DNA from: Brevundimonas goettingensis
GTDB lineage: Bacteria; Pseudomonadota; Alphaproteobacteria; Caulobacterales; Caulobacteraceae
Direction of reading: 5' to 3'
Length of the DNA: 64,000 nucleotides
Assembly (NCBI RefSeq): GCF_017487405.1
Contig: NZ_CP062222.1
Coordinates: 62,001 to 126,000 of the forward strand
Below are positions 34,494-40,611 of the stretch, one piece after another (the first letter of the stretch is position 1; the number at the start of each line of letters is the position of its first letter). The position numbers and the translations under genes were made by a program. The notes beneath the pieces are model-generated. The model ran no database searches. It was given only the letters and a program-made list of their open reading frames with translations, and was not told the origin of the DNA.

Positions 34494-35024
34494 ATGACCC
34501 TCGACGACCTCGGTCCGCGCATCCTCATTCTCGGACCATCGAACAGCGGCAAGTCGACGCTGGCGGAGGCCATCGCCCGGGCGCGGGGGCTTGAGGCTGT
34601 GCATCTGGATCAGCTTCACCATCTGCCGGGGACCGACTGGGTTCAGCGTCCGCCGGAAGAGTTTGCGCGTCTGCACGAAGAGGCCGTCGCGGGCGAGCGC
34701 TGGGTGATGGACGGCAACTATTCGCGCCTGCTGCCGTCGCGGCTGGCGCGGGCGACGGGGGCGATCCGGATCGAGCTGCCGACGGCCGTCAGCCTGTATC
34801 GCTATGCGCGGCGCAGCTGGTTCGAGCGGGGTCGGGTGGGCGGACTGGACGGCGGGCGCGACAGCGTGAAGTGGGTGATGATCCACCACATCGCCGTCAC
34901 CACCCGCCTGAACCGCAAGCGCAATCGCCTCGCCTTCGAGGGCTTCGACCTGCCGAAGATCCGGCTGGCGACGCCCGCCGCGCTGGACGCCTTCTACCGC
35001 GCCAACGGGCTCACCCGCGTTTAG
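34494..35024 (+). CDS. P-loop kinase-like protein (adenylate kinase/FlaR-like)
   Basis: A 176-residue P-loop NTPase: Walker A ILILGPSNSGKSTLAEAIA (residues ~9-27), then AVHLDQLHHLPGTDW and WVMDGNYSRLLPSRLARATGAIRIELP, the LDxLHxxPGW and DGNY pattern of the FlaR/topology-modulation group. These small proteins look like nucleotide or shikimate kinases; their substrates are unknown. Its last four bases overlap the end of the convergent metZ-like gene. Confidence 0.82.
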   Translation: MTLDDLGPRILILGPSNSGKSTLAEAIARARGLEAVHLDQLHHLPGTDWVQRPPEEFARLHEEAVAGERWVMDGNYSRLLPSRLARATGAIRIELPTAVSLYRYARRSWFERGRVGGLDGGRDSVKWVMIHHIAVTTRLNRKRNRLAFEGFDLPKIRLATPAALDAFYRANGLTRV

Positions 35025-36211
35025 GCGGCTTCGGCCTGTTCGACCGAGACGGCGTCCAGCGCCTGGACCAGATCAGCGATCAGATCGTCCTGATGCTCCA
35101 GACCCACTGACAGGCGCAGCAGGCCCTCGGTGATGCCGGCGACGACGCGGGCTTCCGGCGTCATGGCGGCATGGGTCATGGTCGCGGGGTGGGCGATCAG
35201 GCTTTCGACGCCGCCGAGGCTTTCGGCCAGGGTGAAGGTCTCCAGCGTCTCGACAAGAGTGCGGACGGCCTCAACGCCGCCGACCAGTTCGAAGCTGAGC
35301 ATGGCGCCCGGGCCCTGCTGCTGGCGGGCGGCCAGGGCATGGTTCGGGTGCGACTTCAGACCCGGATAGTGGACGGCCTGCACCGCCGGATGAGCTTCCA
35401 GCAGTGCGGCGACGTGGCCGGCGGTTTCCTGCTGCCGCTCGATGCGGGTGAACAGGGTGCGGATGCCGCGCATCGTCAGATAGGCGTCGAAGGCGCCGCC
35501 GGTCACGCCGCGGCAGTTGGCCCACCAGGCCAGTTCGGTGTGATCGGCCGGATCGGCCGAGATCACGGCGCCGCCGACCACGTCGGAATGGCCGTTGATG
35601 TATTTTGTCGTCGAATGGACCACGATGTCGGCGCCCAGTTCGATCGGGCGCTGCAGGGCCGGCGACAGGAAGGTGTTGTCGGCGACCACCTTGGCGCCCA
35701 CGGCATGGGCGCGCACGCAGATGTCGGCGATGTCGACGACGCGCAGCAGGGGGTTCGACGGGGTCTCGACCAGCACCAGTTTCGGGTTCAGGGCGAAGGC
35801 GGCGGCCAGGGCTTCCGGATCGCCCTGGTCGACCCACAGGACCTCGAAATGACCCTTGCGGGCGTGGGCGCAGAGCAGGCGATGGGTGCCGCCATAGCAA
35901 TCATGCGGAGCGATCAGCAGGTCGCCCGGCGAGAGCAGCGACAGGGGCAGATCGACCGCGGCCATGCCGGTGGCGGTGACCACGCAGCCGGCGCCGCCTT
36001 CCAGCTCGGCCAGGGTTTCGGCCAGGACGTCGCGGGTCGGATTGCCCGAGCGGGCGTAGTCGTATTTCCGCTTCTGGTCGAAGCCGGCGAAGGAATAGTT
36101 GGATGACAGATAGAGCGGCGGCATGACCGCGCCGTGCGCCGAATCCTGATCCACGCCCGAGCGGGCGCAGATGGTGCGGATGTCTTTTGCGGTGCGGGCG
36201 GTACGGGTCAC
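35021..36211 (-). CDS. Cystathionine gamma-synthase / O-acylhomoserine sulfhydrylase family PLP enzyme
   Basis: A 396-residue Cys/Met-metabolism PLP enzyme. The PLP Lys is in VVHSTTKYINGHSDVVGGA, with YARSGNPTRDVLAETLAELEGG, VTATGMAAVDLPLSLL, PSNPLLRVVDI and ADNTFLSPALQRP. The sequence suits either cystathionine gamma-synthase (MetB) or O-acylhomoserine sulfhydrylase (MetZ); which one depends on the sulfur donor and cannot be told by eye. It takes acyl-homoserine from the metX-like gene just upstream. The GTG start at 36211 overlaps that gene's stop (GTGA), and the SAM-I riboswitch upstream should control both. Confidence 0.9.
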   Translation of the reverse strand: MTRTARTAKDIRTICARSGVDQDSAHGAVMPPLYLSSNYSFAGFDQKRKYDYARSGNPTRDVLAETLAELEGGAGCVVTATGMAAVDLPLSLLSPGDLLIAPHDCYGGTHRLLCAHARKGHFEVLWVDQGDPEALAAAFALNPKLVLVETPSNPLLRVVDIADICVRAHAVGAKVVADNTFLSPALQRPIELGADIVVHSTTKYINGHSDVVGGAVISADPADHTELAWWANCRGVTGGAFDAYLTMRGIRTLFTRIERQQETAGHVAALLEAHPAVQAVHYPGLKSHPNHALAARQQQGPGAMLSFELVGGVEAVRTLVETLETFTLAESLGGVESLIAHPATMTHAAMTPEARVVAGITEGLLRLSVGLEHQDDLIADLVQALDAVSVEQAEAA

Positions 36212-37293
36212 TGGTCGATATCCTTGAGGGCGGAGCGGAGGATGTCGCCGACGAGGGCGTCCTCCTTCAGGAAGGCGTCGTGGCCGTACAGGGACGGAGC
36301 CTCGACCAGACGCCACAGGGTGGGCAGGCGGGCCGCGAGTTCGCGGATGTCGTCGATCGGCACCAGTCGGTCGGAGGTGAAGCCGACCAGGGTGACGGGG
36401 GTGGTGATGGCCTCGGGCGTGACCGAATGGCGGTCCAGCGAGTCGGACATCGACAACCAGCGCGAGGGGGTGGTGTGGGTGCGGTAGGCCACGCCGCGCG
36501 CGGTCAGATATTCGCAGACCGGATAGGCCTGACCGGCGGCCAGGGGGGCGGTGGCAGCGAATCGTTCCGAGAATTCCTCGGCGGTGCGATAGGTGGTCAT
36601 GGCCAGTTCGCGGGCCAGGGCGACGCCGTCCTCGGGCCGGCCGGCCTCGACTGCCAGCTTCAGGATGCGGCGCTGGATGCCGCGCCAGGCGGTGGCCTGC
36701 GGATGGGCGCGGTGGGCGGCGGAGACGACGATCAGCTGCTCGGCCCAGCGCGGGAACAGCTCGCCGAAGGCCAAGGCGATCATGCCGCCGTAGGAGCAGC
36801 CGACCACGGCGGCCACGGTCTCGGCGCCGAGGTGATCCAGCAGCAGGGCCAACAGGCGGGCCTGGTCGTGGGTGGTGATGGTGACGGCTTCGGCGCCCTC
36901 GGCGTCAGCGCCGGGGGCGTAGTCGAAGGCCAGGACCTGACAGCGGCGCAGGTCGATCGGGCCGCCGGCGGTGACGGCGTCCGACCACCAGCCCAGGCCG
37001 TTGGTCTCGGTGCGGTGGACGAAACGGCCCGCCGAGATGCCGCCGGCGACGACGACCAGGGGCGCCCCTTCGCGGCCATGGAGCCGGCCGGTGACCGTGG
37101 TCTGGTTCAGGCTCTGGCCCGACTGCAGGCGGAAATCGGCGGGGATTTCGACGCTGATGTCGACGGCGTTGCCCTGTCGGATGCGACGCAGATCCGGCAC
37201 GAAGGTGCGCGGCTTGAGCTCCAGACGCGCGACATCGCCGTCCAGGGTACATTCGGGTTCGGTGGTTTCGGTATCGAAGGCCATCGTCTGCAT
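36208..37293 (-). CDS. metX: Homoserine O-acyltransferase, MetX-like
   Basis: A 361-residue alpha/beta-hydrolase-fold acyltransferase that activates homoserine for methionine synthesis. The nucleophile elbow is AAVVGCSYGGMIALAFG, the Asp lies in VTLVGFTSDRLVPIDDI and the His in SLYGHDAFLKEDALVGDIL. True acetyltransferase MetX usually has GGSMGGM; the CSYGGM form is shared with succinyl-transferring relatives, so the acyl donor is open. I start at MQTMAFDTETTEP (37293). It is followed by a coupled metZ/metB-like gene and preceded by a SAM-I riboswitch, so S-adenosylmethionine should switch both off. Confidence 0.88.
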   Translation of the reverse strand: MQTMAFDTETTEPECTLDGDVARLELKPRTFVPDLRRIRQGNAVDISVEIPADFRLQSGQSLNQTTVTGRLHGREGAPLVVVAGGISAGRFVHRTETNGLGWWSDAVTAGGPIDLRRCQVLAFDYAPGADAEGAEAVTITTHDQARLLALLLDHLGAETVAAVVGCSYGGMIALAFGELFPRWAEQLIVVSAAHRAHPQATAWRGIQRRILKLAVEAGRPEDGVALARELAMTTYRTAEEFSERFAATAPLAAGQAYPVCEYLTARGVAYRTHTTPSRWLSMSDSLDRHSVTPEAITTPVTLVGFTSDRLVPIDDIRELAARLPTLWRLVEAPSLYGHDAFLKEDALVGDILRSALKDIDQ

Positions 37294-37361
37294 CAGTCCC
37301 GCCCAGCAAGGACCCGATGCGGTGACAGATGGGTGGATGCGCCGCCGTTTACCGACGCTCC

Positions 37362-37471
37362 ACTCATCTCTCGCGACCCCGAAAGGTCTCGCAGGAGTTG
37401 GCACCGTTCGGACGGAATCCGATGGTTGCCCCGACGTCAAAGGGCCTATCCCTCGGTCGGTCTTGATGAGT
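37362..37471 (-). promoter_or_regulatory. SAM-I (S-box) riboswitch
   Basis: Read on the minus strand, P1 is a perfect 7-base helix ACTCATC (37471-37465) with GATGAGT (37368-37362). Between them lie the conserved S-box blocks in order: ATCAAGACCGACCGAGGGA (kink-turn side), TAGGCCCTTTGACGTCGGGG with CAACC, then GGTGCCAACTCCTGC, and finally GAGAGATGAGT. All match the SAM-I consensus. It ends 69 bases before the metX-like start. Downstream, TCCACCCATC is nearly complementary to the P1 3' strand, and could in turn pair with GGGCGGGA near the start codon, suggesting SAM-dependent hiding of the ribosome site. The expression-platform model is inference. Confidence 0.92.
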
Positions 37472-37663
37472 AATCCAACCGTGAGGCAAAACGGGGGTTC
37501 AGGTCAAGCGGAAAAATCCACCGCATACCCGCGTAACAGCTCTGCCGGTCTGCTGCCCTATACTCGCCGAAACGCGATAACGCGCAAAAAACTTCCACGA
37601 TGGGGTTGACGGCGACGCAGAGGCCCGACACCCTTAGGCAACTATTTTCGCAAGGTTCACCCC

Positions 37664-37795
37664 GTGTCCCGTTCTGGCCTTCTCGCCATTTCGATTAGCA
37701 CCGCCGCCGCAGTGACGGCGCGGACGGGCTCGCCTGCGCTCACCACCACCGGCGGTATGACCATCACCGGCCCCTCGCGGGCGGGGACAGGTTAG
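37664..37795 (+). CDS. Thr/Ile-rich leader peptide of the hom-thrB operon
   Basis: A 43-codon open frame from the GTG at 37664 (after an AAGGT site) to the TAG at 37793. It encodes MSRSGLLAISIST..., then VTARTGSPALTTTGGMTIT and GPSRAGTG. Nine of 43 residues are Thr, with a cluster LTTTGGMTIT, and three are Ile, like the thrL leader of enteric bacteria. The last codons contain CGGGCGGG, which can pair with the 5' arm of the following terminator. Stalling of ribosomes on Thr or Ile codons when charged tRNA is scarce should therefore change the fold and let transcription enter hom. Leader peptides of this sort are usually missed in annotation. Confidence 0.8.
   Translation: MSRSGLLAISISTAAAVTARTGSPALTTTGGMTITGPSRAGTG
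37778..37785 (+). promoter_or_regulatory. Antiterminator arm inside the Thr leader peptide
   Basis: CGGGCGGG lies in the last codons of the leader ORF and is an exact complement of CCCGCCCG (37828-37835), the 5' arm of the attenuator terminator. Pairing of the two would block the terminator, with ribosome position on the leader deciding which fold wins. Confidence 0.65.
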
Positions 37796-37827
37796 CGCGC
37801 GTCGGAACCGACAAGCACCAACCCAGA

Positions 37828-37855
37828 CCCGCCCGGACCCCCGGGCGGGTTTTTT
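37828..37855 (+). terminator. Attenuator terminator before hom
   Basis: CCCGCCCGG-ACCC-CCGGGCGGG followed by TTTTTT is a perfect nine-pair Rho-independent terminator, 32 bases after the leader peptide stop and 56 bases before the hom start codon. It is the best intrinsic terminator in the window and sits in front of a gene, as expected for attenuation. Confidence 0.93.
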
Positions 37856-37911
37856 CTTGCCCCGCCGCATCACCCGATTTTCCGCACCACCACCCTGCTC
37901 CGAGATCGAAA

Positions 37912-39657
37912 ATGTCCCACCTCTCCGTCGTTCAGAAATCCGACCCTCTCAAACCCGCCGCCGAACAGGGGGCCGCGCTCGACGTCGTGGTGCTCAAGTT
38001 CGGCTCCTCGATCCTGCGCTCACAGGCCGATGCGCCGGCGGTGGCGTCGGAGGTCTATGGCCACGTCCGCGCGGGGCGGAAGGTGGTGGCGGTGGTCTCG
38101 GCCTTCGGCGGCCAGACCGACCGGCTTCTGGCCGACGCCCGCCTGCTGGGCCTCGACCACGAGAACGATCTGCTGCCCGGCTATGTGGCGCTCGGCGAGG
38201 AACAGGCCGCCGCCCTGACGGCCATCGCCTGCGACCGGATCGGCCTGGACGCCGTTGCATTGTCCGTCCGCGAACTGGGCATCGTCGCCGAGGGATCGGC
38301 CGAACACGCCCACCCTTGCGACCTCAAGAGCGGCGCGCTTCTGAAGGCGCTGGCCGAGCATCAGGTGGTGGTGGCGCCGGGCTTCGGTGCGGTGCGGCCG
38401 GACGGCAAGGTGGCGCTGCTGGGACGCGGCGGTTCGGACATGACGGCGGTCTTCCTCGCGGCCGAGCTGGGGTTGAAGCGGGTCCGCCTGGTGAAGGATG
38501 TGGACGGTCTCTACGACCGGGACCCTGCCGCCGCCTCAGGCAAGCCGCTGCGCTATCGTCGGGCCTCGTGGGACGATGCGCGCCGTCACGGCGGCGCCCT
38601 GGTCCAGCATGACGCCATCGATCTGGGCCAGCAGCGCGGCGTGGAGATCGAGGTCGCCGGTCTGGCGCGCGCCGGCGGCACGGTGGTCGGCGACCACTCG
38701 GCGCCCCCCGGACCCTCGGTCCCCGACGCCCCGATCCGCGTCGCCATCGCCGGCTGCGGCGTGGTCGGCGGCGGGCTTCTGGCCCGGTTGCTCGGCGATC
38801 CCCGCTATCAGGTCACGGGCGTTCTGGTGCGCGATCCGAAGAAGGTGCGCGACGTGGCGGCGCCGTCGGACCTCTACACCTCGGACCGCGCGGCATTCCT
38901 CGCCGAGAAGCCCGATCTGCTGGTCGAGGCCCTGTCCGAGGGCGAGGCCGGTCACGACCTGATCCGCGAGGCCCTTCAGGCCGGGATCGACGTGGCCAGC
39001 GCCAACAAACAGGCCATCAGCCGTGATCCCGCCGGGCTTCAGGCCCTTGCCGATCAGCACAAGGCCCTGCTGGTCTATTCGGCGGCGGTCGGCGGCGGCG
39101 CCCCCATGATCGAGACCCTGCGCGCCGCGCGTCAGGCCGGTCCGGTCACCCGCTTCGAGGCCGTGCTCAACGGCACGGTCAACTTCATGCTGGACAGGCT
39201 CAGCGCCGGCGCCGATTTCGCCGACGCCCTGGCCGACGCCCGGGTGGCGGGCTTTGCGGAAGAAGATCCGTCCTCGGATCTGGAAGGCCGCGACGCCGCA
39301 GCAAAGGTGCGGCTGCTGTCCTACGAAGCCTTCGGCGAGACGCCGGGCGAGGGCACGATCACCTGCGACGTCCTGTCGGACGCCTTCAAGCCCAACGGCG
39401 CGCCCGTGCGCCAGATCGGCGCCTGCGTGAAGTCCGAGGCCGGTCTCGACGCCACGGTCCTGCTCGACCGCGAGCTTGAGGATCCGCTGTTCCTGGCCCT
39501 GCGCGGCGAACGCAATGCGCTCAAGGTCTATGGCGAGGACGGCCGGGTCTGGTCGTGCAAGGGCCGCGGCGCCGGGCGCTGGCCGACGACGGAGAGCGTG
39601 CTGGCCGACGTCGCCGATATCGTGCGCGCGCGCCACGCCGCGCTCGGGTATCATTAG
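37912..39657 (+). CDS. hom: Fused aspartokinase-like domain and homoserine dehydrogenase, no ACT domain
   Basis: A 581-residue fusion. Residues ~24-262 are an amino-acid-kinase domain: LKFGSSILRS (K29), VSAFGGQTDRL, LLGRGGSDMTAVFLA (~170-184) and VRLVKDVDGLYDRDP. Residues ~273-581 are homoserine dehydrogenase: VAIAGCGVVGGGLL (NAD(P) loop), VASANKQAIS with the catalytic Lys, EAVLNGTVNFMLDRL and DLEGRDAAAKVRLLS. The kinase goes straight into the dehydrogenase with no room for the ACT regulatory domains of ThrA/LysC, nor is there a C-terminal ACT domain. The kinase loop reads KFGSS, where aspartokinases have KFGGTS, so its activity is uncertain. A Thr-type attenuator precedes it and thrB follows three bases later. 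Confidence 0.9.
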   Translation: MSHLSVVQKSDPLKPAAEQGAALDVVVLKFGSSILRSQADAPAVASEVYGHVRAGRKVVAVVSAFGGQTDRLLADARLLGLDHENDLLPGYVALGEEQAAALTAIACDRIGLDAVALSVRELGIVAEGSAEHAHPCDLKSGALLKALAEHQVVVAPGFGAVRPDGKVALLGRGGSDMTAVFLAAELGLKRVRLVKDVDGLYDRDPAAASGKPLRYRRASWDDARRHGGALVQHDAIDLGQQRGVEIEVAGLARAGGTVVGDHSAPPGPSVPDAPIRVAIAGCGVVGGGLLARLLGDPRYQVTGVLVRDPKKVRDVAAPSDLYTSDRAAFLAEKPDLLVEALSEGEAGHDLIREALQAGIDVASANKQAISRDPAGLQALADQHKALLVYSAAVGGGAPMIETLRAARQAGPVTRFEAVLNGTVNFMLDRLSAGADFADALADARVAGFAEEDPSSDLEGRDAAAKVRLLSYEAFGETPGEGTITCDVLSDAFKPNGAPVRQIGACVKSEAGLDATVLLDRELEDPLFLALRGERNALKVYGEDGRVWSCKGRGAGRWPTTESVLADVADIVRARHAALGYH

Positions 39658-39660
39658 GTC

Positions 39661-40611
39661 ATGGCGGTCTTCACCCCGGTTTCGGACGATCAGGCGCGGG
39701 CCTTCGTCGGCGGCTATCCGGCCGCGGGCGAGTTCGTGTCGCTGCACGCCATCGCCGAGGGGGTGGAGAACACCAACTACCGGCTGGAGACCACCTCGGG
39801 CCGGTTCGTCCTGACCCTGTTCGAGGGACGGACCGACGCCGCCTCCCTGCCGTTCTGCCTGGGTCTGACCGACCATCTGGGCGCGGCCGGCTATCCGGCG
39901 GCGCGGCCCCTGCGTGATCGCAACGGCCAGTGGATCGGCGAGCTGAACGGTCGTCCGGCGGCGGTGGTCGAATGGCTGTCCGGCGCCTGGCTGCGGGAAC
40001 CGTCGCCAGACGAGGTCGCCCGCGCCGGGGCGGCCCTGGCCCGTTTTCATCTGTCGGCCCGCCGTTTCGCCGGTCGCCGCGCCAATCCGGTCGGGCCGCT
40101 GGTCTGGAAGGTTCTGCTCGACCGGTCGGCCTCGGGCGCGGCGACGGCCGAGGACCGCCAGCTCGTCGCCGACTGCCGTCAGGCGCTGGAGCGGATCGGC
40201 GATCCGTTCACGGACGACCTGCCGTCGGGCGCGATCCACGCCGACTATTTTCCCGACAATGTCCTGTTCGAAGGCGGGCAGGTGTCGGGCGTGATCGATG
40301 TCTATTTTGGCTGCGACGGCCCCTTCGCCTATGACCTGGCGATCGCCCTGACGGCCTGGGGCTTCGACGGGGAGGGGCATGAGATCCCGGGCGCGGTCGA
40401 GGCCTTTCGGCGCGGCTATGAATCGGTGCGGCTGCTGACCTGGACCGAGGAAAAGGCCCTGCCGCTGCTCGGCGAGGCGGCGGCCCTGCGCTTCACCCTG
40501 ACCCGGCTGCACGACCGGATCTTCCACGACCCGACCAAACTGGTCACGCCCAAGGACCCGGCCGCCTTCTTCCGCCGCACGGCCTACTGGCGGGTGACCG
40601 AGGCCGCCTAG
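39661..40611 (+). CDS. thrB: Homoserine kinase (APH-fold, ThrB type II)
   Basis: A 316-residue homoserine kinase of the aminoglycoside-phosphotransferase fold. Features are FVSLHAIAEGVENTNYRLET (nucleotide loop), FVLTLFEGRT with the Lys-equivalent region, AIHADYFPDNVLFEGGQVSGVIDVYFGCDGPFAYDLAIAL (catalytic Asp in HADYFPDN and metal Asp in IDVYFG) and a conserved ending TKLVTPKDPAAFFRRTAYW. It makes O-phosphohomoserine for threonine synthase (thrC at 43.9-45.3 kb). It starts three bases after hom, so it shares the Thr attenuator. Confidence 0.94.
   Translation: MAVFTPVSDDQARAFVGGYPAAGEFVSLHAIAEGVENTNYRLETTSGRFVLTLFEGRTDAASLPFCLGLTDHLGAAGYPAARPLRDRNGQWIGELNGRPAAVVEWLSGAWLREPSPDEVARAGAALARFHLSARRFAGRRANPVGPLVWKVLLDRSASGAATAEDRQLVADCRQALERIGDPFTDDLPSGAIHADYFPDNVLFEGGQVSGVIDVYFGCDGPFAYDLAIALTAWGFDGEGHEIPGAVEAFRRGYESVRLLTWTEEKALPLLGEAAALRFTLTRLHDRIFHDPTKLVTPKDPAAFFRRTAYWRVTEAA

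Follow-up and report, generated by a model that had tools for sequence, protein, structure and literature searches.

The locus and its genes

The window analyzed here is a stretch of 64,000 nucleotides from Brevundimonas goettingensis, whose genome is a single contig of 3.98 Mb. Within it the genes for a homoserine dehydrogenase (hom) and a homoserine kinase (thrB) lie on the plus strand, divergent from metX and a metB-like gene on the minus strand. The features of the region are as follows.

35021-36316, minus strand: metB-like gene, cystathionine gamma-synthase, start codon not fixed (TIGR02080, 589.6 bits, above cut-off)
36208-37290, minus strand: metX, homoserine O-succinyltransferase-like, start codon not fixed (NF006449, 403.5 bits, above cut-off)
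37361-37472, minus strand: SAM-I riboswitch preceding metX and the metB-like gene, both divergent from hom (RF00162, 88.1 bits)
37606-37611, plus strand: -35-like element TTGACG (alignment consensus)
37652-37655, plus strand: putative Shine-Dalgarno sequence AAGG, 8 nt 5' of the GTG (read directly)
37664-37795, plus strand: threonine-rich leader peptide frame of 43 codons with GTG start (read from the sequence)
37742-37768, plus strand: regulatory codons ACC ACC ACC GGC GGT ATG ACC ATC ACC, threonine with methionine and isoleucine (read directly; enriched in relatives)
37778-37785, plus strand: segment 2, CGGGCGGG, leader codons Arg-Ala-Gly and 5' arm of the antiterminator (codon bias; recoding control)
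37778-37835, plus strand: long antiterminator hairpin (predicted fold)
37825-37855, plus strand: intrinsic terminator, 12-pair stem, 4-base loop ACCC and six T at 37850-37855 (terminator scan and folding)
37912-39657, plus strand: hom, fusion of AA_kinase and homoserine dehydrogenase, 581 amino acids (Pfam PF00696, PF03447, PF00742)
39661-40611, plus strand: thrB, homoserine kinase (thrB_alt; TIGR00938, 307.7 bits, above cut-off)

A preliminary description of this DNA had called the first gene downstream hom. The homoserine dehydrogenase is indeed there, fused to an aspartokinase-like domain, and the genome contains a single PF00742 match.

Conservation and distribution of the element

A scan of genome contigs gave 77 related named loci, of which 74 had enough upstream DNA to be tested. 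L063 and L074, where the contig starts inside the gene, and L016, with 70 nt upstream, were dropped before counting. A leader, its segment 2 tail and a terminator precede the same gene in 63 of the 74 loci. The terminators were judged by reading the sequences, since the initial hairpin scan misses bulged terminators. The 11 loci that lack the element are L061 and L062, eight loci from Planctomycetota (L069, L070, L072, L073 and L075-L078), and L071, which has an unlike leader. The closest named locus is that of Brevundimonas sp. UBA986 (L002), with 97% identity. The 63 loci and the window make a set of 64 sequences, 62 of them distinct over the aligned part; these are related, so that counts over the set are not independent events. 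The gene thrB comes next after hom in 60 of the 63 loci, and a divergent metX is seen in 53. In each of the other loci the gene concerned was not found in the DNA examined. A divergent SAM-I riboswitch is present in 13 of the 17 attenuator loci scanned, the exceptions being L043, L048, L050 and L067.

Of 299 Caulobacterales genomes, 16 gave a match to the covariance model R1, one per genome, under stricter filters that may have lost weak matches. All 16 belong to Brevundimonas (genus g1), that is 16 of the 27 Brevundimonas genomes as listed, compared with none of 272 other Caulobacterales, with 54 genera sampled. Leaving aside G376, G381 and G386, the match lies upstream of homoserine dehydrogenase on the same contig and strand in 12 of 13 genomes; in the thirteenth (G102) it lies at the end of a different contig from that gene. 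Five Brevundimonas genomes without a match (G002, G049, G058, G066 and G083) have homoserine dehydrogenase following metB. The other six (G024, G037, G073, G092, G143 and G147) gave no PF00742 match and are rated 99-100% complete; it is possible that they are auxotrophs or have replaced the enzyme.

In a tree built from 65 homoserine-dehydrogenase domains, a single branch separates all 30 sampled rows that carry the attenuator from the rest, with a support of 94/90 that is just below the program's own mark of 95/80; the tree has long branches, and L246 was left out. As judged from these sequences, this is consistent with a single gain of the attenuator. Leaders were also sought at three sets of other homoserine dehydrogenases: 30 loci of the standard type within the family (L079-L108), 22 fusion loci from genus g14, and 29 loci, 28 of which lie outside the family, taken from the 82 genomes with a match in a class search. 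None of the three sets yielded a convincing leader. An Rfam scan of seven of the g14 loci gave no match up to E 0.1.

How often would a threonine run and a terminator coincide by chance? The search required at least five threonine residues in 12 and a terminator within about 100 nt, and it covered 0.95 Mb of strand DNA in related genomes; a threshold of six in 12 misses the window's own leader. Two of 5669 small frames had the combination, a true copy (L171, at the locus of L043) and a chance occurrence (L231), giving a background of about one chance combination per 0.95 Mb of strand. Within the window the leader is the sole frame with a threonine run and a terminator among 590 small frames (288 + 302).

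The leader frame and its regulatory codons

The leader encodes a predicted peptide of 43 amino acids, VSRSGLLAISISTAAAVTARTGSPALTTTGGMTITGPSRAGTG, including nine threonine and three isoleucine residues, and ends with TAG at 37793-37795, 116 nt before the hom ATG. Nine of the 43 codons of this short frame, whose translation is predicted, thus specify threonine, several of them in a run. The GTG is the consensus at the leader start in the alignment of relatives. For each locus the start was taken as the shortest that keeps the threonine run, which makes the lengths of the leaders, and counts of residues close to the start, unreliable. Outside the threonine block and the tail the peptide diverges strongly between lineages.

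TTGAC is found upstream in all 64 sequences. In the window TTGACG is followed by CACCCTTAGG at 37629-37638, and the alignment shows a conserved block about 20 nt past TTGAC. To judge from sequence, these two elements may serve as a promoter; a generic scan of the region gave no sigma-70-type promoter.

The composition of the regulatory block was determined over the 64 sequences. The 16 residues before the five-residue tail contain 40.5% threonine, 9.7% isoleucine and 9.5% methionine, compared with 1.9%, 2.3% and 0.5% for the hom proteins that these loci encode, corresponding to enrichments of 21.7-, 4.2- and 17.6-fold, respectively. For a 21-residue block the values are 36.7% threonine, 8.3% isoleucine and 10.3% methionine; four window proteins, used for comparison, have 5.4%, 3.1% and 0.9%, giving enrichments of approximately 7-, 3- and 11-fold. 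At least one methionine is present in the block of 60 sequences, and threonine, methionine and isoleucine are all present in 56. The block of L064 has eight consecutive threonine codons, with neither methionine nor isoleucine within the run. The preliminary description had called the leader one for threonine and isoleucine. Threonine stands, while isoleucine is a minor part of the block, on a par with methionine.

The front edge of a stalled ribosome lies about 12 nt beyond the stalled codon. From the last clustered threonine codon to codon -5 the distance is 12 nt in 51 of the 64 sequences, 6 nt in nine, and 0-9 nt in the remaining four.

Terminator and antiterminator

Both sequence and predicted fold place an intrinsic terminator between the leader and the first structural gene. 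Its GC-rich stem spans 37825-37852 and begins 29 nt after the leader stop, and the fold of 37808-37856 has an energy of -24.8 kcal/mol (z -5.3). The 5' arm contains CCCGCCCG (37828-37835), an exact reverse complement of segment 2. Pairing of the two forms helix P1 of the predicted antiterminator, followed by P2, in which GGTT (37790-37793) pairs with AACC (37820-37823), and an apical stem of GTCG (37801-37804) with CGAC (37809-37812). The fold of 37774-37843 has an energy of -33.5 kcal/mol (z -3.6). The preliminary description had rested on a 43-codon frame with nine threonine codons, a terminator with six T, and exact complementarity between 37828-37835 and the last leader codons at 37778-37785; each of these was recovered by direct reading, the terminator with its stem of 12 pairs.

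These structures are predicted throughout the set. Segment 2 pairs with the terminator arm in all 64 predicted nascent folds, with 6-10 base pairs and z < -2 in 60, and the terminator has z < -2 in 63. The inner helices of the antiterminator vary in register between lineages. The tail is also strongly biased in its codons. GCG occupies position -4 in 63 of the 64 sequences (background 23%), GGG or GGA occupies position -3 in 62 (background 14%), and 28 of the 43 threonine codons at position -2 are ACA (background 1%), where each background is taken from four window genes only. When the last five codons were synonymously recoded, the mean probability of the antiterminator was 0.71, compared with 0.94 for the native sequences, and every one of the 64 native sequences exceeded the mean of its own 20 recodings. 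Sliding the partner by 1-3 columns lowered the proportion of paired cells from 84.3% to 32.8-61.6%.

The preliminary description would have been overturned by a lack of conservation of the frame or of the paired arms. That test has been passed, given the 63 of 74 loci and the 64 folds above. It had also hoped for covariation, and this is absent. There is one compensatory pair (L043), and the 84.3% of cells that are paired compares with 85.1% in column shuffles; covariation gives no support because the arms are nearly invariant. Folding the whole alignment with RNAalifold gave no covariation term in favor, and the MAFFT alignment used misplaces the 3' arm. A protector or pause hairpin (1:2) is unsupported: the fold of 37650-37790 has z 0.45, and segment 2 makes a mean of 4.8 pairs with upstream partners compared with 6.3 in a shuffled control (at least four pairs in 53 of 64).

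Predicted switching with ribosome position

We have modeled the effect of the ribosome by folding with masked RNA, which treats a kinetic process as if at equilibrium. In our preferred model the RNA downstream of the ribosome alone is folded, which is the usual picture of attenuation. It was adopted after the outcome of a model that keeps the upstream RNA was known. With the ribosome at the stop codon the preferred model gives the terminator a probability greater than 0.5 in all 64 sequences, and in 49 of them the antiterminator takes over when the ribosome is placed on the last threonine codon or the one before it. In these predicted folds the antiterminator excludes the terminator by means of the segment that the ribosome covers. 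The cruder model, keeping the upstream RNA, gave a switch in 38 of 64, and there the window remains in the terminator form at every ribosome position. In the preferred model the nascent RNA of 19 of the 64 sequences still favors the antiterminator when the ribosome has reached the stop codon, and consequently a strict nascent switch is found in only 43.

For the window itself the preferred model gives the terminator a probability of 1.00 with the ribosome at the stop codon. When the ribosome is on the last threonine codon, the antiterminator reaches 1.00 in the nascent RNA and 0.53 in the full-length RNA. One threonine codon earlier the nascent RNA again gives 1.00 for the antiterminator, but the full-length RNA gives 1.00 for the terminator. 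Folding of 37776-37856 gives the antiterminator as the minimum-energy structure and the terminator as the centroid.

A model for the regulation of hom-thrB

The presence of the parts, their conservation, their spacing and the mutually exclusive predicted folds all point to an attenuator, from which we infer translation of the leader, stalling, termination and a response to threonine. RNA polymerase would start near 37640 and be trailed by a ribosome through the 43-codon leader. With plentiful Thr-tRNA the ribosome would reach the stop codon and cover segment 2 (37778-37785), leaving the 5' arm of the terminator free, so that the terminator at 37825-37855 would form and transcription would end. 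If threonine were short, the ribosome would stall on the ACC codons of 37742-37768, with its front edge just before segment 2. Segment 2 would then be free to pair with the terminator 5' arm in the long antiterminator, and hom-thrB would be transcribed. We consider it highly likely that the element is a ribosome-mediated, threonine-sensing transcription attenuator of hom, a fusion lacking an ACT domain, and thrB. The two genes would very probably be read only when threonine is short.

Might threonine, methionine and isoleucine be read together, so that shortage of any homoserine end product relieves termination? Methionine and isoleucine are enriched over both comparison sets, most blocks contain all three residues, the unlike leader of L071 likewise mixes them, and the window's genome has a single match to homoserine dehydrogenase. 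The codons for isoleucine and methionine are each one transition away from threonine codons, and drift could therefore have placed them in the block of these related sequences. Drift would favor isoleucine over methionine because ACC is the commonest threonine codon, and the enrichment of both residues thus makes a sensor for all homoserine-derived amino acids possible. Against it stand the run of eight threonine codons in L064 and the reasoning that shortage of methionine should also reduce initiation of the leader. We regard this broader sensing as a tentative possibility. Somewhat more doubtful is an extension of it, in which a leader that senses all three products faces the SAM-I riboswitch within a single intergenic region and the two RNA switches divide homoserine between methionine and threonine.

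Threonine-sensing attenuation has further to be weighed against explanations that dispense with a switch. A fixed early terminator would yield a short RNA and a peptide that could act in trans, as has been described for peTrpL of Sinorhizobium meliloti (PMC7298713; PMC10117765, as far as those sources were covered). The strong divergence of the peptide outside the threonine block and tail makes this very improbable, and the tail is accounted for by RNA pairing; such action would be compatible with attenuation. The interval between the leader stop and the hom ATG has room for other structures that might control translation of hom, or the leader might act through polarity. Given that the terminator has z < -2 in 63 of the 64 sequences and that segment 2 matches its 5' arm, control of this kind seems very improbable. 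Stems form easily in GC-rich DNA, and a terminator scan alone expects 0.8 chance hits in the stretch. A chance arrangement is nevertheless excluded for practical purposes by conservation in 63 of 74 testable loci, together with 16 of 27 Brevundimonas genomes; a threonine run combined with a terminator is moreover rare in the background.

Other RNA switches and the ACT domain

In all six Brevundimonas loci examined that have homoserine dehydrogenase after metB (L165-L170), and in L061 and L062, a single strand carries metX, metB and homoserine dehydrogenase in this order, preceded on that strand by a SAM-I riboswitch. No aspartokinase-like domain was found in L165-L170. Brevundimonas sp. Root1279 (L043; G117 = G392) has two homoserine dehydrogenases, one in the SAM-I operon without the aspartokinase-like domain (L166) and one a fusion behind the threonine attenuator (L171). 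The pair parallels metL and thrA of E. coli.

In four further loci a SAM-II-like element (RF00521) precedes the fusion hom, opposite a divergent SAM-I riboswitch.

L172, 3475-3552, plus strand: SAM-II-like, upstream of hom
L173, 5293-5370, minus strand: SAM-II-like, upstream of hom
L235, 1852-1929, minus strand: SAM-II-like, upstream of hom
L236, 1731-1808, minus strand: SAM-II-like, upstream of hom

All four matches, at 27.3-32.0 bits, fall short of the Rfam gathering score of 36, but the element occupies the corresponding place in each locus. In the part of PMC4239095 covered, SAM_alpha is known before hom-metXC from Hyphomonadaceae.

The locus L071, from Proteobacteria bacterium B110T1L10, has a leader of threonine, isoleucine and methionine codons with an intrinsic terminator between metB and hom (at about 2610-2830). 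As in the Brevundimonas leader, a threonine run is followed by a segment of the last codons complementary to the 5' arm of the terminator, with which it pairs, and a fusion gene of the same kind lies downstream. Unlike that leader, it is represented by one sequence, dissimilar to the others, and is flanked by metB and hom on the same strand.

In the Planctomycetota loci L241-L249, relatives of L075, MetB ends in a threonine-rich tail before hom; L241, L242, L243 and L245 repeat L075, L076, L077 and L070. Such a tail, with 7-13 threonine residues, is found in all nine loci where 90-160 nt separate the MetB stop from the conserved point at which the hom domain begins. MetB ends with 0-4 threonine residues in all ten where it nearly reaches or overlaps that point. 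L251, L253, L257 and L262 could not be judged and were excluded from the count. No intrinsic terminator was seen by eye near the threonine-rich tails, which may serve as leader peptides for hom.

No ACT domain was found in the five fusion enzymes scanned (window, L071, L075, L115 and L236), nor in the enzyme of L165; the sole standard enzyme scanned (L102, 429 amino acids) has one. This suggests, without proving, that control by RNA replaces allosteric feedback in enzymes that lack the domain. The genus g14 has an ACT-less fusion (L115) yet no recognized leader, which counts against a strict rule of this kind.

Relation to known attenuators

In enteric bacteria thrL has a leader rich in threonine and isoleucine, a pairing segment in its last codons and a terminator before thrABC. 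The Brevundimonas element shares with it (RF00506) a leader of threonine and isoleucine codons, a pairing segment in the last leader codons, and a terminator before the first gene of homoserine and threonine synthesis. Unlike thrL, its block contains methionine codons, it precedes an ACT-less fusion hom and thrB rather than thrABC, and among the 54 Caulobacterales genera sampled it is found in Brevundimonas only. The Rfam model Thr_leader (RF00506) finds nothing in the window at its gathering score, and a search of 37300-38100 up to E 10 also gave no match. The preliminary description had proposed the logic of thrL, built from unrelated sequence in an alphaproteobacterium. The logic is supported, on the predictive models, by the conserved frame and arms and the predicted nascent pairing; unrelatedness holds as far as Rfam can show; and the nearest named loci are from Brevundimonas, in the Caulobacteraceae.

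A literature search, with subscription papers mostly outside its scope, found no report of the element. Those papers include Vitreschak et al. 2004 (FEMS Microbiol Lett 234:357), which may list threonine attenuators in alphaproteobacteria. In the same bacterial family and with the same logic, Caulobacter crescentus has an ilv leader attenuator and leader frames for trpS and ileS, there with other amino acids and genes (PMC4117421, in its main text). The words threonine and homoserine are absent from that main text. Another alphaproteobacterial example is SEP5 of Sinorhizobium meliloti, a small frame with six threonine codons in the 5' UTR of a gene linked to aspartate-family synthesis, which has been suggested to be a leader peptide (PMC10117765, in the part covered). 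Unlike the present leader it has threonine and lysine codons and a different gene, and according to its authors it is conserved only in Sinorhizobium; that part of PMC10117765 contains no attenuator fold for it.

The mechanism is classical and expected, and by model the element is separate from Rfam Thr_leader. It is very probably a threonine attenuator of classical design that is invisible to the enterobacterial family model, which suggests that such attenuators also arise anew and escape those models. One family of hom enzymes is found with a threonine attenuator, a SAM-I operon or a SAM-II-like element, providing a testable case of the exchange of RNA switches, and in Root1279 one homoserine dehydrogenase is under the threonine attenuator and one under SAM-I. 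If the tentative reading of all three products were true, the cell's only homoserine dehydrogenase would be switched on when any homoserine-derived amino acid was short.
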